Source: Clostridia bacterium (GTDB lineage Bacteria; Bacillota; Clostridia; Christensenellales; Aristaeellaceae). From it: 54,222 bases of DNA. Position numbers and translations under genes: made by a program. Of the stretch, positions 47,875 to 54,222 are shown piece after piece. The DNA lies in assembly GCA_017541205.1 (NCBI GenBank), contig JAFXZO010000100.1, positions 1 to 54,222 of the forward strand, read 5' to 3'. The notes under the pieces are model-generated. The model searched no databases. It worked only from the letters and a program-made list of their open reading frames with translations, and was not told where the DNA came from. Position 1 is the first letter of the stretch. Each line of letters starts with the position of its first letter.

Positions 47875-48660
47875 TTATTCGATGGTGATGCACTTGCAGG
47901 GGCAGACCGCGGCGCAGGAGCCGCAGCGCGTGCACTTATCGGGATCGATGCGCGCAAAACCGTTTTCAACCGTGATCGCGTCGTACTGGCATTCTTTTTT
48001 GCAGCGGCCGCAGCCGATGCAGGCGTCCATGCACACGGTGCGGGCCACGCGGGCTACGTCGCTGTTGCGGCAGCGGACGATCACCTTGGCGGATACGGGC
48101 AGCAGCTTGATCGCGCTGCGCGGGCAGGCCTTGACGCACTGGCCGCAGGCGGTGCATTTGTCAGGATCGATGTTGGCGATGCCGTCCTTCATGCTGATCG
48201 CGCCGAACGCGCATTTATCCATGCAGTCGCCCAGGCCGAGGCACGCAAAGCGGCAGTCCTTGGGGCCGCCGGCAAGACCCGCGGCGGTGGCGCAGCTTTG
48301 ATACCCGTCGTATTGATAGCGTTCCTTGGCGATACCGTTTTCGCCCTGGCAGAGCACCCTGGCAACCAGCCGTTCGCCCGCCGTGGCTTCCTGGCCCATG
48401 ATTTTGCCGATGGCTTTCACGCCTTTTTCACCGGCAGGGGCGCAGCCGTTGATAGGCGCTTCGCCCTTGACCACCGCTTCCGCGAAGGCGTCGCATCCGG
48501 CATAGCCGCACGCGCCGCAGTTCGCGCCGCCCAGGCATTCGCGGACCTGGGCCACGCGCTCATCCACTTCCACGTGGAATTTTTTGCTTGCAAAGCTCAG
48601 CACACCGCCGAAAATGAGGCCCAGCGCACCCAGCAGGATACCGGCATACAGAATCGTCAT
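47875..48660 (-). CDS. rnfB: Rnf complex subunit B
   Basis: 261 residues from ATG 48660 with AAGGAGGG upstream (an upstream in-frame Met is not supported). One N-terminal membrane helix (about 3-24), then the Fe-S cluster motif with GGANCGACGYAGCDAFAEAV (about 45-64), and further C-terminal ferredoxin domains: CTACGQCVKACPRSAI, CIGCGRCKKECQYDAI and CTRCGSCAAVCPCKCI, plus two cysteines around CRFACLGLGDCMDKC. RnfB is the first electron acceptor from reduced ferredoxin. It is the last gene of the operon and carries more clusters than minimal forms, as in acetogens. Confidence 0.97.
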   Translation of the reverse strand: MTILYAGILLGALGLIFGGVLSFASKKFHVEVDERVAQVRECLGGANCGACGYAGCDAFAEAVVKGEAPINGCAPAGEKGVKAIGKIMGQEATAGERLVARVLCQGENGIAKERYQYDGYQSCATAAGLAGGPKDCRFACLGLGDCMDKCAFGAISMKDGIANIDPDKCTACGQCVKACPRSAIKLLPVSAKVIVRCRNSDVARVARTVCMDACIGCGRCKKECQYDAITVENGFARIDPDKCTRCGSCAAVCPCKCITIE

Positions 48661-48673
48661 CTCGATACCCTCC

Positions 48674-49255
48674 TTACACCAAGCCGTTGAAGCCCATGAA
48701 GGCAACGGCCATCAGCCCGGCGGAAACCAGCGTAATGGGGAAGCCTTTCATGCAGGCGGGGATCTTGCTGCTTTCCAGACGTTCCCGGACGCCCGCCATC
48801 AGCACGATCGCCAGCAGGAACCCCAGCGCGGAGAACGTACCGTTCAGCACGGACTGGAGCAGGCCGTAACTGTTGTTCATGTTCAGGGTGGCGACGCCCA
48901 GCACCGCGCAGTTGGTGGTGATCAGAGGCAGGTAGATGCCCAGGGCGCTGTACAGGGTAGGGCTGCTCTTTTTGAGGAACATTTCCACGAACTGAACCAG
49001 CGCGGCGATCACCAGGATAAAGGAAATGGTGTTCATGTAGGTCAGCTCCAGGGGGACCAGGAGCAGATGATAGATCAGCCAGCAGAAAAGGCTCGCGATG
49101 GTCATCACGAAGGTCACGGCCAAGCCCATGCTGACGGAGGTTTCCACCTTGCTGCTTACGCCCAGGAAGGGGCAGCAGCCCAGGAAACGATTAAAGATGA
49201 AGTTATGGGTCAGGATGCAGCTGACCATAAACAGCAGGATCTCTACAACGCTCAT
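48674..49255 (-). CDS. rnfA: Rnf complex subunit A
   Basis: 193 residues, integral membrane protein with six helices. The opening LTHNFIFNRFLGCCPFLGVS (about 15-34) and the middle YLPLITTNCAVLGVATLNM (about 107-125) are family signatures; the paired cysteines in these segments hold the intramembrane [2Fe-2S] cluster shared with RnfE. The start overlaps the rnfE stop (ATGA). It ends 13 bases before rnfB. Confidence 0.98.
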   Translation of the reverse strand: MSVVEILLFMVSCILTHNFIFNRFLGCCPFLGVSSKVETSVSMGLAVTFVMTIASLFCWLIYHLLLVPLELTYMNTISFILVIAALVQFVEMFLKKSSPTLYSALGIYLPLITTNCAVLGVATLNMNNSYGLLQSVLNGTFSALGFLLAIVLMAGVRERLESSKIPACMKGFPITLVSAGLMAVAFMGFNGLV

Positions 49256-49890
49256 GCGGTCTTCGCCTCCTTTGCCACGCGGCTGCGCTCGATTTTCTTG
49301 ACGATCAGGTTGAATACGCCAAGCAGCAGGCCGAAGGTCAGGAAGCCGCCGGACGCAAGCACGATCAAAAGCATCGGTTCATACGACGAACCAAGGATGT
49401 TCAGGCCGAACACGGACCCGTTGCCGATCAATTCCCGGATGGCGCCCATCAGGGTCAGGGCCAGGGTGAAGCCGATCCCCATACCCAGGCCGTCACATGC
49501 GGATGCGATGGGGGGATTCTTGCTGGCGAACGCTTCAGCGCGGGCCAGGATGATGCAGTTGACCACGATCAGGGGAATGAAAATGCCAAGCGATTCATCC
49601 AAGGAGGGCAGGAACGCCTTCATCAGCAGCTGCACCATGGTAACGAACGTGCAGATCACCACGATAAACGCGGGGATGCGCACCTGATCCGGAATGAATT
49701 TACGCAGGAGGGAAATTGCAAAGTTGGAGCAGACCAGCACGAAGGTGGCCGCCGCGCCCATGCCAAGGCCGTTTAAGGCGCTGGTCGTCACGGCCAGGGT
49801 GGGGCAGGTGCCCAGCACCAGGCGGAAGGTGGGGTTTTCGGGGATGATACCGTTAAACAGTACCTTCCCCAGACTCTTTTTTTCGCTCAT
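49252..49890 (-). CDS. rnfE: Rnf complex subunit E
   Basis: 212 residues with six membrane helices, homologous to RnfA in inverted orientation. LVLGTCPTLAVTTSALNGLG (about 24-43) and IPLIVVNCIILARAEAFASK (about 104-123) contain the cysteines that bind the membrane [2Fe-2S] cluster. It overlaps rnfD upstream and rnfA downstream by four bases each. In the usual operon rnfG would lie between rnfD and rnfE; it is absent here. Confidence 0.98.
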   Translation of the reverse strand: MSEKKSLGKVLFNGIIPENPTFRLVLGTCPTLAVTTSALNGLGMGAAATFVLVCSNFAISLLRKFIPDQVRIPAFIVVICTFVTMVQLLMKAFLPSLDESLGIFIPLIVVNCIILARAEAFASKNPPIASACDGLGMGIGFTLALTLMGAIRELIGNGSVFGLNILGSSYEPMLLIVLASGGFLTFGLLLGVFNLIVKKIERSRVAKEAKTA

Positions 49891-50831
49891 GCTTTCTTAG
49901 CCTCCTTTTGATGTCCGTAAATCTTCCGGGGCAGGAAGCGATCGATCAGGGGAGTGGCGATGTTCATCAGCAGGATACCGTAGGTGACGCCTTCGGGATA
50001 GCTGCCGAAGGTGCGGATCAAAACGATGATGAGACCGATCATGCAGGCGTAGAAGACCTGCGCGAGCGGCGTGATGGGGGAGGTCACATAGTCGGTCGCC
50101 ATGAAGACTGCGCCAAACAGCACACCGCCGGACAAGGTGGCCATGAGGGCGGCTTCCGGCGTCATACCGCCAATCAGCAGGCTGAAAAGGAAGACGCTGC
50201 CGGTCATGACCACGGGAATGCGCCAGGAAATGGTGCCCGTGATCAGCAGGAACAGGAATCCCAGCAGGATCGCGGCTTTGCTTACTTCGCCGATGGTGCC
50301 GGGAATCTGGCCAAGGAACAGTTCCATCAGCGTCGCGCTTTTGGCGGAGAGCGGCGTCGCGGCGGAAACGGCGTCCACACCGGCCTTGAAGAAGGTGGGG
50401 CTTACGAAAGCAGAGGAGGTCATGTGCACGGGCCAGGAGGCCAACAGCACGGCGCGCGCGGCCATCGCCGGATTGAGGAAGTTATCGCCAAGGCCGCCGA
50501 AGAGCTGCTTGACGACGATGACGGCGAACACGCTGCCCACGACGACCATCCACCAGGGCGCGGTCGCAGGCAGGTTCAGGCCCAGGATCAGGCCGGTCAC
50601 GAGAGCGGAAAAATCCTTGATGCGCACGGGCTGCTTGGCGATCAGCTGCCACAGGTATTCTGCCAGGACCGCGCTTGCCATGGAAAGGATGAGCACCAGC
50701 AGCGCTTTGAGGCCGAACGCGTATACGCCCCAGGCCGCGGTGGGCAAAAGCGCGATGAACACATACTGCATAAGCCTTTGTGTTGTCAGCGGATTATGCA
50801 TGTGCGGCGCGGTGGAAATTCTCAGGCTCAT
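49887..50831 (-). CDS. rnfD: Rnf complex subunit D
   Basis: 314 residues from ATG 50831, whose A is shared with the rnfC stop; AAAGGAGG precedes it. The earlier in-frame Met at 50966 lies inside rnfC. A ten-helix membrane protein related to NqrB. The covalent FMN site is visible as VDAVSAATPLSAKSAT, with the Thr of S-A-A-T (family SGAT/SAAT) near residue 166; GLGDNFLNPAMAARA (about 128-142) is another conserved block. RnfD couples electron flow to sodium or proton movement together with RnfA and RnfE. It needs the ApbE flavin transferase, which is not in this window. Confidence 0.96.
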   Translation of the reverse strand: MSLRISTAPHMHNPLTTQRLMQYVFIALLPTAAWGVYAFGLKALLVLILSMASAVLAEYLWQLIAKQPVRIKDFSALVTGLILGLNLPATAPWWMVVVGSVFAVIVVKQLFGGLGDNFLNPAMAARAVLLASWPVHMTSSAFVSPTFFKAGVDAVSAATPLSAKSATLMELFLGQIPGTIGEVSKAAILLGFLFLLITGTISWRIPVVMTGSVFLFSLLIGGMTPEAALMATLSGGVLFGAVFMATDYVTSPITPLAQVFYACMIGLIIVLIRTFGSYPEGVTYGILLMNIATPLIDRFLPRKIYGHQKEAKKA

Positions 50832-52192
50832 TATTTGTTGCCTCCTTTCGCAGCGGCAGCGGCGGCGGCTTTTGCCTTGGCTTCGGCGGTGATATGATCC
50901 TTGCAGTATTTGAAGGACGGCGTCAGCCACCGGCGGGAAGGACATTGATAAGCGCAGGAGCCGCACAGGATGCAGTCCATCACGTGCAGTTTTTCCGCCG
51001 CGGCGAAATCGCTTTTATCCGCGGCAACTTTGATTTGGTAGGGGTTCAGGCCGATGGGGCAGGCAGCGACGCAGCGGCCGCAGTGGATGCAGGGGCTTTC
51101 GTCCTTGCTGCGGGATTGCTGCTCGTTCAGAACCACGATGCCGTTTGTGGATTTGAAAATGGGCATTTGGTCGTTGGGAATGCAGATGCCGGTCATCATG
51201 CCGCCGAATACAACCTTGCCCGGCGTTTCGGAATAGCCGCCGCATTCGCCGATCACGTCCTCCGTGATCGTGCCGATGCGAAGAAGCAGATTGGCGGGCT
51301 TTCGCACGCAGCCGGTCACCGTGCAGATCCGGCTGATCAGGGGCTTGCCGTCGATGATCGCGTCGGCGATCGCGGCGCAGGTGCCAACGTTCAGCACCAC
51401 CACGTGCGCGGCGATCGGCAGCCCGCCCGAGGGCACCTGACGGCCGGTGATCGCTTCGATCAACTGCTTTTCACCGCCCTGCGGGTACTTGGTTTTCAGG
51501 GGCCGGATGGAAACGCCCTCGCGGCCCTTGGAAGCGTTTATCATCGCTGTGATGGCTTCGGGCTTGTTGTCCTCGATGCCGATGACGCCCTTTTTCACGT
51601 TCAGCGCGCGCATCACGGCGCGCAGGCCGTCCACGATGCGGGTGCTGTTTTCAAGCATCAGGCGGTAGTCGGCCGTCAAATGCGTTTCGCATTCCGCGCC
51701 GTTGACGATGATCGTATCGCAGGTCGCGCCGGCTTGGAAGGTGAGCTTCACGTGGGTTGGGAAGCTGGCCCCGCCCATGCCGGTGATGCCGGCAGCCTGA
51801 ATAGCGGGAACGACGAGGCTCGGGTCAACCTTTTCAACGCTGCCCAGGGGCTTGAGCTCTACCCAGGTATCCGCGAAATCGTTTTTGATGGTGACCGCCT
51901 GCACGTTGCCCGCGCCCAGGGACGGGATGGAATCCACCGCGACCACTTCCCCGGAAACGCTGGCGTGAACGGGAACGCTCATGAAGCCCTGGGCTTCGCC
52001 GATCACCTGGCCGATGTCCACGTGATCGCCCTTTTTCACGCAGGGCTTGGCGGGCGCGCCGATATTCATCGCCATGGAGATGACCACGGTATCCGATACA
52101 TATTCGCGGGTTTTCAGATCCCGGGTCTGGCCTTTGCCCTCGTGCATGTTATGCAGGGGATGGATGCCCCGCTTAAATGTTTTTGTAAGCAA
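50831..52192 (-). CDS. rnfC: Rnf complex subunit C (TTG start)
   Basis: 453 residues. The start is TTG 52192: AAGGAGG lies eight bases before it and the typical N-terminus (FKRGIHPLHNMHEGKGQTRD) follows at once. The NADH/FMN-binding part has ITGMGGASFPTHVKL (about 136-150), and the two [4Fe-4S] motifs are CIHCGRCVAACP (about 373-384) and CILCGSCAYQCP (about 413-424). RnfC carries the NAD+-reducing site. The C-terminus is an Ala/Lys-rich tail (KAKAAAAAAAKGGNK). It follows the enlarged RnfG-like gene by 32 bases. Confidence 0.97.
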   Translation of the reverse strand: MLTKTFKRGIHPLHNMHEGKGQTRDLKTREYVSDTVVISMAMNIGAPAKPCVKKGDHVDIGQVIGEAQGFMSVPVHASVSGEVVAVDSIPSLGAGNVQAVTIKNDFADTWVELKPLGSVEKVDPSLVVPAIQAAGITGMGGASFPTHVKLTFQAGATCDTIIVNGAECETHLTADYRLMLENSTRIVDGLRAVMRALNVKKGVIGIEDNKPEAITAMINASKGREGVSIRPLKTKYPQGGEKQLIEAITGRQVPSGGLPIAAHVVVLNVGTCAAIADAIIDGKPLISRICTVTGCVRKPANLLLRIGTITEDVIGECGGYSETPGKVVFGGMMTGICIPNDQMPIFKSTNGIVVLNEQQSRSKDESPCIHCGRCVAACPIGLNPYQIKVAADKSDFAAAEKLHVMDCILCGSCAYQCPSRRWLTPSFKYCKDHITAEAKAKAAAAAAAKGGNK

Positions 52193-52224
52193 TGTCCGTG
52201 CCTCCTTCTTTTCTGTTTACCCGG

Positions 52225-54222
52225 TCACTGCTGCCCGGAGAGGGAATGCTCATAAGCCTGGTTCAAGGCGATAACAACCGCCTGCGCAGCGTAGGGCGCC
52301 ACACCTATGGAGGAATAATCCCCGGCGTCAAGCGGCATCGTCTGCCCGGTCAGGGCTGCGTAAAGCGGGCTGTCCTCGACAGGAATCAATTGCTCTTCGC
52401 CCACGGGGGTTTCAAAGAGGGAGAAGCTTTGCAGGGTGTTCCCGGCAAAATTAGCCGAAACGGAATAGTTGGTGAAGAAGCAAATGCAGGAACCGGTATC
52501 GGAGGAAACGCCGCTGTCCTGGCCGGCGATTGCGCTTCCCTGAGACGCATAGACCTGATTGACAGCCGCCGCGACCGCGGAAGCGTAGGCCGATTGCTGG
52601 GCCGTGCTGAGCGGAACCTCCTGGCCGAGGAAGAGGGAACGCATTTCTTCTTCCCGGGCGCTTTGCCGGTAGGCATCGCCGCCCACCGGCATATCGAATA
52701 CGCGCAGATCGGATAATACGTTTCCGTCAAAGGAAGCTTTTACCTGAATGGCGGTAAAGAAGGAAATCACTTCGCCGGAGGCTTCTTCGTTTTCCTCAGG
52801 CAGGGCTTCCGGCTCCTGTGTTTCGGGCACGGCGGGCGCGTCGGCTTCCTTGATGAACGCCTTGTTGATCGCGATGGCTACCAGGGATTCATACAGGGAA
52901 TCCTGCCTGTATTCAAGCGGCAGCTGCTTTCCGACGAATTTCTCCTTCAGCGCCTGTTCCTGATCGCTTGAAACGATATTGCCCTGCGCGTTTTTTTCCT
53001 TTACGGACAGCGTCTTGAGCGTATCGCCTTCAAAAGTCGCCGCGATATAGACGACCGGGACGGAGGAAACGTCGATTTGAACGGGCTCGTCGGCTGTATT
53101 TTCACCTGCGAACACCTTGTAGGCCTGGTTGACGGCGCTCGCGAGGGCGACGGCGTAGGGCGTTTTCTGGCCTGCCACATCCAGCGGCAGGGAGGCGTTA
53201 TGGAGCGCTTCTTTGATCTCTTTTTCCTGTGCGCTGGGCGCAAAGGCCTGATCGCCCGCGGCTTTATCCGCTACGGACAGCACCAGGACCTTGCCGCCGA
53301 CGAAGAGGACCTTCGCTTCGATCTGGGTGAAGAAGCTGACGGCCTCCACGGTCACGACGCCTTCCTCCGTTTGGCTGATGCTGTATTCGCCGATCCCGAT
53401 GGGCTTCGCGGCGGTTTCGATACTGCCGCAGACCGCGTAAGCGCGGTTGATCGCGCTCGCGAGAGCGGTCGCGTAGGGCGTTTTCTGGCTTGCTGTGTCA
53501 AGAGGCAAAGGCGCATTGAAGAACAGCTTTTTCAGCTCGCGCTCCTGAGCGCTCGCGGCATAGGGCTGGTCGCTGCCGGCAGGCTTATCCGCAATGGAGA
53601 GGACGACGACGCTGCCTTCCACAAAGCTGATCTTGGCCTCGATCTGGGTAAAGAAGCTGATGGCTTCCACGGTCACCATGCCATCCTCGGCTTTGCGGAC
53701 GCTGATCAAATGCGTATCCTCGGCTTTCTGATCCGTCGCTTCAGGCGCGGGCGTAGGCTCGGCGGCGGGCGCCTCGGTCGCTTCGGGGACGGGGGTGGGT
53801 TCCTCGGCGGGCGCTTCGGTCGCTTCGGGGACGGGGGTGGGTTCCTCGGCGGGCGCTTCGGTCGCTTCAGGCATGGGGGTGGGTTCATCCGCCGCCGCTT
53901 CGGTTTCCGCGGGCTGCGTCTTCGTCTCTCCCTGAGACTGCGCCTGATACGCTTCGTTCACGGCTGCCACCACAGCCTTGGAAGAAACCGTCGCGCCGGC
54001 GACCAGATCCACGTTTTCTTCGCTCAAAGGACCATCGACGCCGATAAACTGCGCCAGGAAAGCGTTGCTATCTTTTACTTTCCCCAGGAAGGATGCGTCC
54101 ATTTCGGAATCGGAATCGCCGAGCTCGATGCCGTTCACCGCGCCGTTCTCGTCCACGCCGATGGTCACGTCAAAGGTGCCGGTTACGCCGCCGGCCTTTG
54201 CGGTAAACACGGCCGCGCCTTC
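52225..54222 (-). CDS. rnfG: enlarged RnfG-like protein with degenerate FMN-bind repeats (5' end outside window)
   Basis: The frame is open to the right edge, so the true start lies outside; 665 residues are visible. Counting from GTG 54210: a canonical FMN-bind domain (1-89) ends in VDLVAGATVSSKAVVAAVNE, with the flavinylation motif A-G-A-T at 71-74 as in RnfG. Next is a Glu/Pro/Ala linker (98-165) with a 14-residue tandem repeat. Then come five degenerate copies of the FMN-bind fold (about 181-260, 288-366, 381-454, 480-555, 574-654), each starting like VEAISFFTQIEAKISF and ending with a helix like YATALASAINRAY that matches the end of the real domain but lacks the GAT threonine. Copies 1 and 2 are closest to each other. 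Ordinary RnfG has about 200 residues. Position before rnfC and absence of rnfG between rnfD and rnfE indicate that it serves as the G subunit. Confidence 0.85.
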   Translation of the reverse strand, partial: EGAAVFTAKAGGVTGTFDVTIGVDENGAVNGIELGDSDSEMDASFLGKVKDSNAFLAQFIGVDGPLSEENVDLVAGATVSSKAVVAAVNEAYQAQSQGETKTQPAETEAAADEPTPMPEATEAPAEEPTPVPEATEAPAEEPTPVPEATEAPAAEPTPAPEATDQKAEDTHLISVRKAEDGMVTVEAISFFTQIEAKISFVEGSVVVLSIADKPAGSDQPYAASAQERELKKLFFNAPLPLDTASQKTPYATALASAINRAYAVCGSIETAAKPIGIGEYSISQTEEGVVTVEAVSFFTQIEAKVLFVGGKVLVLSVADKAAGDQAFAPSAQEKEIKEALHNASLPLDVAGQKTPYAVALASAVNQAYKVFAGENTADEPVQIDVSSVPVVYIAATFEGDTLKTLSVKEKNAQGNIVSSDQEQALKEKFVGKQLPLEYRQDSLYESLVAIAINKAFIKEADAPAVPETQEPEALPEENEEASGEVISFFTAIQVKASFDGNVLSDLRVFDMPVGGDAYRQSAREEEMRSLFLGQEVPLSTAQQSAYASAVAAAVNQVYASQGSAIAGQDSGVSSDTGSCICFFTNYSVSANFAGNTLQSFSLFETPVGEEQLIPVEDSPLYAALTGQTMPLDAGDYSSIGVAPYAAQAVVIALNQAYEHSLSGQQ
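52249..52491 (-). repeat. degenerate FMN-bind repeat copy 5
   Basis: C-terminal copy: CFFTNYSVSANFAGNTLQSF and TMPLDAGDYSSIGVAPYAAQ, close to the protein end. Confidence 0.6.
52546..52773 (-). repeat. degenerate FMN-bind repeat copy 4
   Basis: Opening SFFTAIQVKASFDGNVL and closing EVPLSTAQQSAYASAVAAAV. Preceded by an acidic Pro/Glu linker (residues 456-479). Confidence 0.65.
52849..53070 (-). repeat. degenerate FMN-bind repeat copy 3
   Basis: Most divergent copy: VYIAATFEGDTLKTLSV, then QLPLEYRQDSLYESLVAIAI. The SFFT opening is lost. Confidence 0.6.
53113..53349 (-). repeat. degenerate FMN-bind repeat copy 2
   Basis: Second GAT-less copy (SFFTQIEAKVLF ... SLPLDVAGQKTPYAVALASA). The near identity of this stretch to copy 1 points to a recent duplication of about 320 bases, counting the linker. 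Confidence 0.75.
53431..53670 (-). repeat. degenerate FMN-bind repeat copy 1
   Basis: Codes for the first GAT-less copy in the RnfG-like protein (SFFTQIEAKISF ... PLPLDTASQKTPYATALASA). It is about 80 residues long and most similar to copy 2 at 53113-53349. Confidence 0.75.
53746..53871 (-). repeat. three tandem 42-base units coding a Pro/Glu linker
   Basis: Three units code for PEATEAPAEEPTPV, PEATEAPAEEPTPV and PEATEAPAAEPTPA, with partial units on both sides. The DNA of the first two is nearly identical, so the copy number may vary by slippage. The linker separates the real FMN-bind domain from the degenerate copies. Confidence 0.85.

Follow-up and report, generated by a model that had tools for sequence, protein, structure and literature searches.

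A flavin-free tail, probably descended from FMN_bind domains, on the long RnfG of a Christensenellales genus

The long RnfG protein of a Christensenellales genome ends in five repeats that have lost the flavin site and that, judged from profile comparisons, descend from FMN_bind domains. We followed this tail through related genomes. By profile score it was confined to one genus in our sample, the tail-bearing genomes forming a single clade on an RnfC tree, and its dN/dS values indicate purifying selection that is relaxed relative to the flavin domains of the same proteins. The window, by which we mean the whole stretch of DNA analysed (54,222 nucleotides), is an entire contig (G000:C32) of a genome of 3.0 Mb in 121 contigs that is 84.86% complete.

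The gene was found as an ORF of 665 codons on the reverse strand (52225-54222), open on its 5′ side at the contig edge. PF04205 gave a single canonical match in this ORF (38.7 bits with a cut-off of 22, residues 12-93). In the open frame, AGAT occupies residues 75-78; these become residues 71-74 when counting starts at GTG, in agreement with the earlier note. Residues 173-665 consist of five repeats of about 90 residues, R1 to R5, without the flavinylation threonine. The motif [STA]GA[ST]x[ST] is absent from all five; that note had described them as lacking the threonine that carries FMN. A common start SFFTxIxxKxxF had been claimed as well. The SFFTxI start is present in R1, R2 and R4, but R5 reads CFFTNY and R3 has none. 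The closing helices of R1 to R5 end in NRAY, NQAY, NKAF, NQVY and NQAY, respectively. No CxxCH was found in the window part of the protein, and the absence of this motif rules out a multi-heme tail for this part. The features are listed in Table 1.

Table 1. Features of the rnf region in the window. Residue numbers refer to the open frame of the rnfG ORF; positions are those of the window.
Feature	Residues	Position	Strand	Remarks
Canonical FMN_bind domain, AGATVSS	1-100	53923..54222	-	5′ side cut by contig edge
P/E/A-rich linker (72 residues)	101-172	53707..53922	-	68% P+E+A, net charge -17
Flavin-free repeat R1	173-271	53410..53706	-	canonical HMM E 2e-5; no flavinylation motif
Flavin-free repeat R2	281-377	53092..53382	-	canonical HMM E 4e-3; no flavinylation motif
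Flavin-free repeat R3	379-462	52837..53088	-	canonical HMM E 2e-4; no flavinylation motif
Flavin-free repeat R4	479-566	52525..52788	-	canonical HMM E 9e-5; no flavinylation motif
Flavin-free repeat R5, C-terminal	573-665	52228..52506	-	canonical HMM E 6e-7; no flavinylation motif
rnfC		50831..52192	-	TIGR01945 482 bits, cut-off 246
rnfD, ORF as listed		49887..50966	-	TIGR01946 303 bits, cut-off 207; match from residue 53, true start probably further in
rnfE		49252..49890	-	TIGR01948 244 bits, cut-off 213
rnfA		48674..49255	-	TIGR01943 254 bits, cut-off 229
rnfB		47875..48705	-	TIGR01944 100 bits, cut-off 69

We collected 32 repeats, five from the window and 27 from seven relatives, and searched them singly. 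PF04205 matched none of the 32 at E values up to 10, and Pfam as a whole returned only seven unrelated names, the best at E 0.011. A profile search on each repeat alone, which the earlier note had suggested, failed with PF04205, whereas the comparison of profile with profile succeeded. With hhalign, the 32 repeats were aligned to 63 canonical domains at 97.1% (E 7.7e-11), over 83 of 87 columns and in register. Controls, eight of them column-shuffled and one reversed, reached at most 2.5%. The 63 canonical domains were taken from eleven loci without a visible tail, one of which is cut at its 3′ end.

Searches with HMMs gave matches in both directions. An HMM of 72 canonical domains matched R1 to R5 with E values from 4e-3 to 6e-7 in a database of 16 proteins. 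An HMM of R1 to R5, used to search 16 proteins, recovered canonical domains from related RnfGs, the lowest E value being 2e-11. Against the flavin domain of the window itself the E value was 9e-3, and some canonical domains were hardly or not matched. BLASTP of R1 against the flavin domain of the window aligned 30 residues at E 0.018, which is too weak on its own. The tail profile had no match among PDB sequences up to E 10. When genome contigs were scanned with the window protein, 76 stretches fitted a pattern and not one of them was confirmed.

The alignment also indicates which parts of the flavin site are gone. In one relative (G028), what reads GATVTSTAVV in a flavin domain has its counterpart in GAAEYIKTAVV of a repeat; the threonine is gone and the length is kept. 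In R1 to R4 of the window, residues are additionally deleted and the GLGA loop is replaced by a YAPSAQE-like stretch. The flavinylation motif is absent in 15 of 15 tail blocks, the starts of which were chosen after the HMM search; among the relatives, its absence was also used to pick single repeats and is no independent finding there. On the strength of the two-way HMM matches and the hhalign result with its controls, we conclude that the tail repeats descend from FMN_bind domains, as the earlier note had supposed. Counts of FMN_bind domains that are based on PF04205 miss such descendants.

The gene is followed by a complete set of rnfC, rnfD, rnfE, rnfA and rnfB (Table 1). Since the rnfD and rnfE ORFs as listed overlap by four bases, there is no rnfG in the usual place between them. 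In the window (47875-54222), as in those relatives whose RnfG is long, rnfG stands before rnfC, giving the order G-C-D-E-A-B. The rnfG model TIGR01947 (cut-off 102) scored 25 bits on the window fragment alone, below the cut-off, the N-terminus of the protein being on another contig, C101. The part on C101 scored 141 bits, and the proteins of two relatives, L058 and L054, scored 187 and 236 bits. From operon order and from these scores we identify the window gene as rnfG, in agreement with the earlier note.

In relatives whose contigs are long enough, apbE, nusG_II, the long rnfG and rnfC, D, E, A and B are on single contigs. The complete genes, of 870-1581 codons, encode 4-8 domains that are flavinylatable by motif and 2-6 flavin-free repeats, and rnfC-D-E-A-B come next. 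By eye, a hydrophobic stretch is visible near the N-terminus in C101 and in the relatives, which is outside the window sequence. RnfA of the tail-bearing relatives, where retrieved, is 92-97% identical to that of the window.

Apart from itself, the window protein has its best match in the genome at the very end of C101 (82 residues, 90% identity), and the first 98 bases at the window edge are identical to C101. On this contig, two Proton_antipo_M genes, apbE, a NusG_II gene and the first part of an RnfG all point the same way. This part of RnfG begins, as judged by eye, with a hydrophobic stretch and contains three stretches of FMN_bind, the last of them truncated where the contig stops. Where C101 and the window overlap, their domains differ in clustered positions. 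If these are tandem copies, the protein has four or more flavin domains; if they are variants of a single domain, it has three. Tandem copies would also account for the break in the assembly. We infer that C101 and the window adjoin within one rnfG.

It is quite improbable that the two do not adjoin, the window gene having another, unassembled N-terminus and C101 carrying a paralogue. A genome in 121 contigs and about 85% complete could conceal such a case, and the overlapping copies are 90%, not 100%, identical. However, both contigs end in the same type of domain, the gene order on C101 matches that of relatives with everything on one contig, and no other RnfG N-terminus was found among the FMN_bind genes of the genome.

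An RnfG with one real flavin domain, as the earlier note had described it, was rejected as an artefact of the contig end. The window is the whole contig, its gene is cut at the edge, and a near copy of its domain and further FMN_bind stretches are on C101, which brings the number to three or more. We also rejected C101 as a cluster without rnf genes. In L077 and L078, the N-terminus of which is 68% identical, about 1.5 kb separates rnfG from the complete set of five rnf genes behind it.

The number of FMN_bind stretches per protein is 6 in L054, 8 in L056, 4 in L058, 5 in L057 and 3 in C101. These proteins thus have the two or more FMN_bind domains by which a protein is called multi-flavinylated; for the gene of the window itself, the count is made up of C101 (3) and the window (1). 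The flavinylation motif is present in the flavin domains, and covalent FMN is predicted there from the motif.

Several features of these loci were observed in passing. The RnfG N-termini of L057, L062, L063, L069 and L072 have extra FMN-domain sequence between the hydrophobic stretch and the usual first domain. L077 (9892-13165) and L078 (3476-7367) encode tail-less RnfG-like proteins in which 9 and 11 FMN domains, respectively, were matched. In both, the 1.5 kb or so between this gene and rnfC contains the NusG_II gene, which is not before rnfG. On C101 (L017:3-3313), the two Proton_antipo_M genes, of the Nuo/Mrp antiporter type, run directly into apbE. Their best matches in relatives such as L076 are 63-78% identical and are found several kb upstream on the opposite strand. 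One of the two proteins, of 768 residues, appears by eye to have near-identical helical repeats at its C-terminus.

We searched the whole genome for FMN_bind domains and obtained 12 matches: one in the window, three on C101 and eight elsewhere. A normal rnfG elsewhere in the genome had been named in the earlier note as evidence against its reading. No ordinary RnfG was found among the 12 matches, which is not proof of absence in a genome about 85% complete. The other eight matches are in FAD_binding_2/FMN_bind proteins on C53 (three matches in a protein that runs off the contig) and C70, a Peripla_BP_4/FMN_bind protein on C16, a MacB-like permease on C80, a rhodanese-like protein on C1 and a protein of 583 residues on C90, where the match is marginal. 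By eye, the FAD_binding_2/FMN_bind proteins start with a signal-peptide-like sequence. The C53 protein (L019:3-3740; 1246 residues up to the contig end) contains three FMN_bind and several FAD_binding_2 stretches and is a possible extracellular acceptor. In the C16 protein (L021:1529-3421) the FMN_bind domain is in front of the Peripla_BP_4 domain, and in the C80 permease subunit (L020:1937-3049), also cut by a contig end, it is behind MacB_PCD.

The profile of the 32 repeats was used to survey the distribution of the tail. Of the 29 genomes of the genus, 18 had a best score of at least 63.2 bits; in the other 11, some of which may have an RnfG cut by a contig end, the best score was at most 44.3 bits. 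By this score, the tail was present in no sampled genome outside the genus. Among 300 genomes sampled from the family, genus members included, the best score outside the genus was 48.5 bits. Among 200 genomes sampled from the order it was 43.8 bits outside the genus, among the matches listed (E up to 1e-8). In 398 genomes of the phylum, the only match at E up to 1e-8 was that of the window itself. Candidate flavin-free domains in other loci outside the genus were rejected as motif variants that keep the threonine or as cuts at contig ends. That check covered ORFs of at least 400 residues and, within them, matches at or beyond residue 150; residues 472-542 of L138 are a partial domain.

On a tree of RnfC, the tail-bearing genomes (15 of 15) form one clade, and none of the five genomes with a complete tail-less RnfG is inside it; the tree has 28 sequences from 20 distinct genomes and was rooted at the midpoint, with branch support not considered. 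RnfC sequences were kept if longer than 380 residues and more than 70% identical to that of the window, and G026 dropped out. The relatives are metagenome genomes, mostly from gut and rumen. The length of the tail ranges from 2 to 6 repeats around the five of the window, and in G013 one flavin-free repeat is located between flavin domains.

To compare selection on the two parts of the protein, we calculated pooled dN/dS (Nei-Gojobori) for three pairs of relatives, two of which share L091. The flavin domains gave 0.14, 0.08 and 0.17, and the tails gave 0.42, 0.22 and 0.36. Among single domains, one flavin domain reached 0.41, one last repeat reached 0.83 at 50% identity, and a piece of 12 codons of another reached 1.29. 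By these ratios, the tail is under purifying selection, relaxed compared with the flavin domains. A constraint that is relaxed two- to threefold relative to the flavin domains, the two high values and the variable repeat number (2 to 6) would all be expected if the repeats were relics, i.e. leftover duplicates of FMN domains that drift under weak constraint with no function of their own. We consider this unlikely. The pooled ratios of 0.22-0.42 are well below 1, the frames are open in relatives with a complete gene, and the tail is retained in every one of the 15 genomes of its clade.

We propose the following organization and role. The protein would be the RnfG of an operon in which apbE and a NusG_II gene precede the rnf genes, themselves arranged G-C-D-E-A-B. 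One hydrophobic stretch at its N-terminus would anchor it in the membrane, and ApbE could load three or more FMN domains arranged in a row. The tail would consist of what were once FMN domains, now without the threonine that bears the flavin and without its loop, but with the remaining domain pattern retained. This anatomy we regard as very probable. Electrons brought out by RnfA/E would pass from the ordinary RnfG flavin to the further flavins and on to extracellular acceptors, for which the FAD_binding_2 and FMN_bind proteins of the same genome are candidates. The tail itself would be a docking or anchoring tip, outside the electron path, that contacts a cell-wall polymer or a secreted flavin reductase; this function falls somewhat short of probable. 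Taken as a whole, with anatomy, electron export and docking or anchoring together, the proposal is put forward tentatively.

The flavin-free block is located beyond the last flavin domain. It should carry no electrons further and so add no reach, and contact or anchoring is the more economical reading. For the same reason, the idea in the earlier note of an extension toward the wall is weak. A related explanation is that the bulk of the tail sets the distance of the protein from the membrane or through the wall, with no specific partner. The beads are joined by P/E/A-rich linkers, and with one FMN domain reported to measure 26 x 26 x 44 A (PMC10339131), eight or more beads could reach some tens of nanometres. 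We think it rather unlikely, because the tail of the window protein and those of most relatives come after the last flavin, so the flavins are not carried outward. Even less likely is that the repeats bind free flavin, quinone or another aromatic shuttle non-covalently in what is left of the flavin pocket: an FF pair, aligned on the aromatic of the canonical GF and mapped by eye near a tyrosine that stacks on the flavin in a domain described as solved in PMC10339131, is present in 19 of 32 repeats, but it is absent in 13, and both places that hold the FMN, a loop by the first helix and the beginning of the second, are changed or deleted.

Some findings also speak against the docking or anchoring tip. 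The repeat between flavin domains in G013 means that the flavin-free part is not always a pure tip, and the last repeat of one pair, with its dN/dS of 0.83 and 50% identity, also fits weak constraint. No partner or wall-binding domain was found for the tail. In its widest form, our suggestion is that the tail is a new flavin-free class of FMN_bind that arose once, in one gut Christensenellales genus, and serves as the variable point of contact at the end of a flavin wire on the Rnf pump, docking the pump to secreted flavin reductases, the wall or outside matter. In this full form it is speculative and probably not correct in all its parts. If true, this would let a fermenting bacterium discharge electrons from ferredoxin to the exterior. 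Multi-flavin proteins have been compared to multiheme wires, as their flavin counterpart, and here the conducting and the merely binding parts could be told apart by comparing tail-bearing with tail-less relatives. That test is possible because the flavin site was lost at one point of the tree and intermediates are still visible.

Parts of this system are known. Outside the membrane, RnfG is reported to accept electrons from the cluster of RnfA/E and to pass them to RnfD (PMC12174285). Multi-flavinylated RnfG in RNF clusters, also in Christensenellales, was described by Meheust et al. 2021 (PMC8238504), who proposed the extra flavins as a second exit to extracellular acceptors and reported a multi-heme domain in some of these proteins. 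Beads-on-a-string models of multi-FMN proteins have been published (PMC11334425), and single FMN domains have been solved (PMC10339131). The claim in the earlier note that no Rnf complex of this form is described does not stand for the several flavin domains but holds so far for the tail. In the literature searches made, and in PMC8238504 and PMC11334425 as searched by words, no description was found of FMN_bind-derived repeats without a flavin site in RnfG; the word "degenerate" is absent from both papers. Multi-flavin RnfG is thus known, and the flavin-free tail looks new.

The RnfG of Meheust et al. likewise has several FMN_bind domains, an RNF cluster and ApbE, but the accessible text of PMC8238504 mentions a multi-heme domain in some proteins and no FMN_bind-derived block free of the flavin site. 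SaFMN3 and CbFMN4 (PMC10339131) are secreted proteins that likewise carry ApbE-loaded FMN domains on flexible linkers. They have three and four domains, respectively, and the text available to us describes them neither as RnfG nor as carrying flavin-free domains. PplA, a flavoprotein of extracellular electron transfer (NF041941), likewise has FMN_bind domains outside the membrane, but its model scored only 15.6 bits on L054 with a cut-off of 325. With ordinary RnfG/NqrC (TIGR01947), the protein shares the first FMN domain, a place in the operon and, as read by eye, the N-terminal hydrophobic stretch. Ordinary RnfG/NqrC has about 190 residues and one FMN, compared with the 870-1581 codons of the complete relatives, and ordinary rnfG is located between rnfD and rnfE, whereas here it precedes rnfC.
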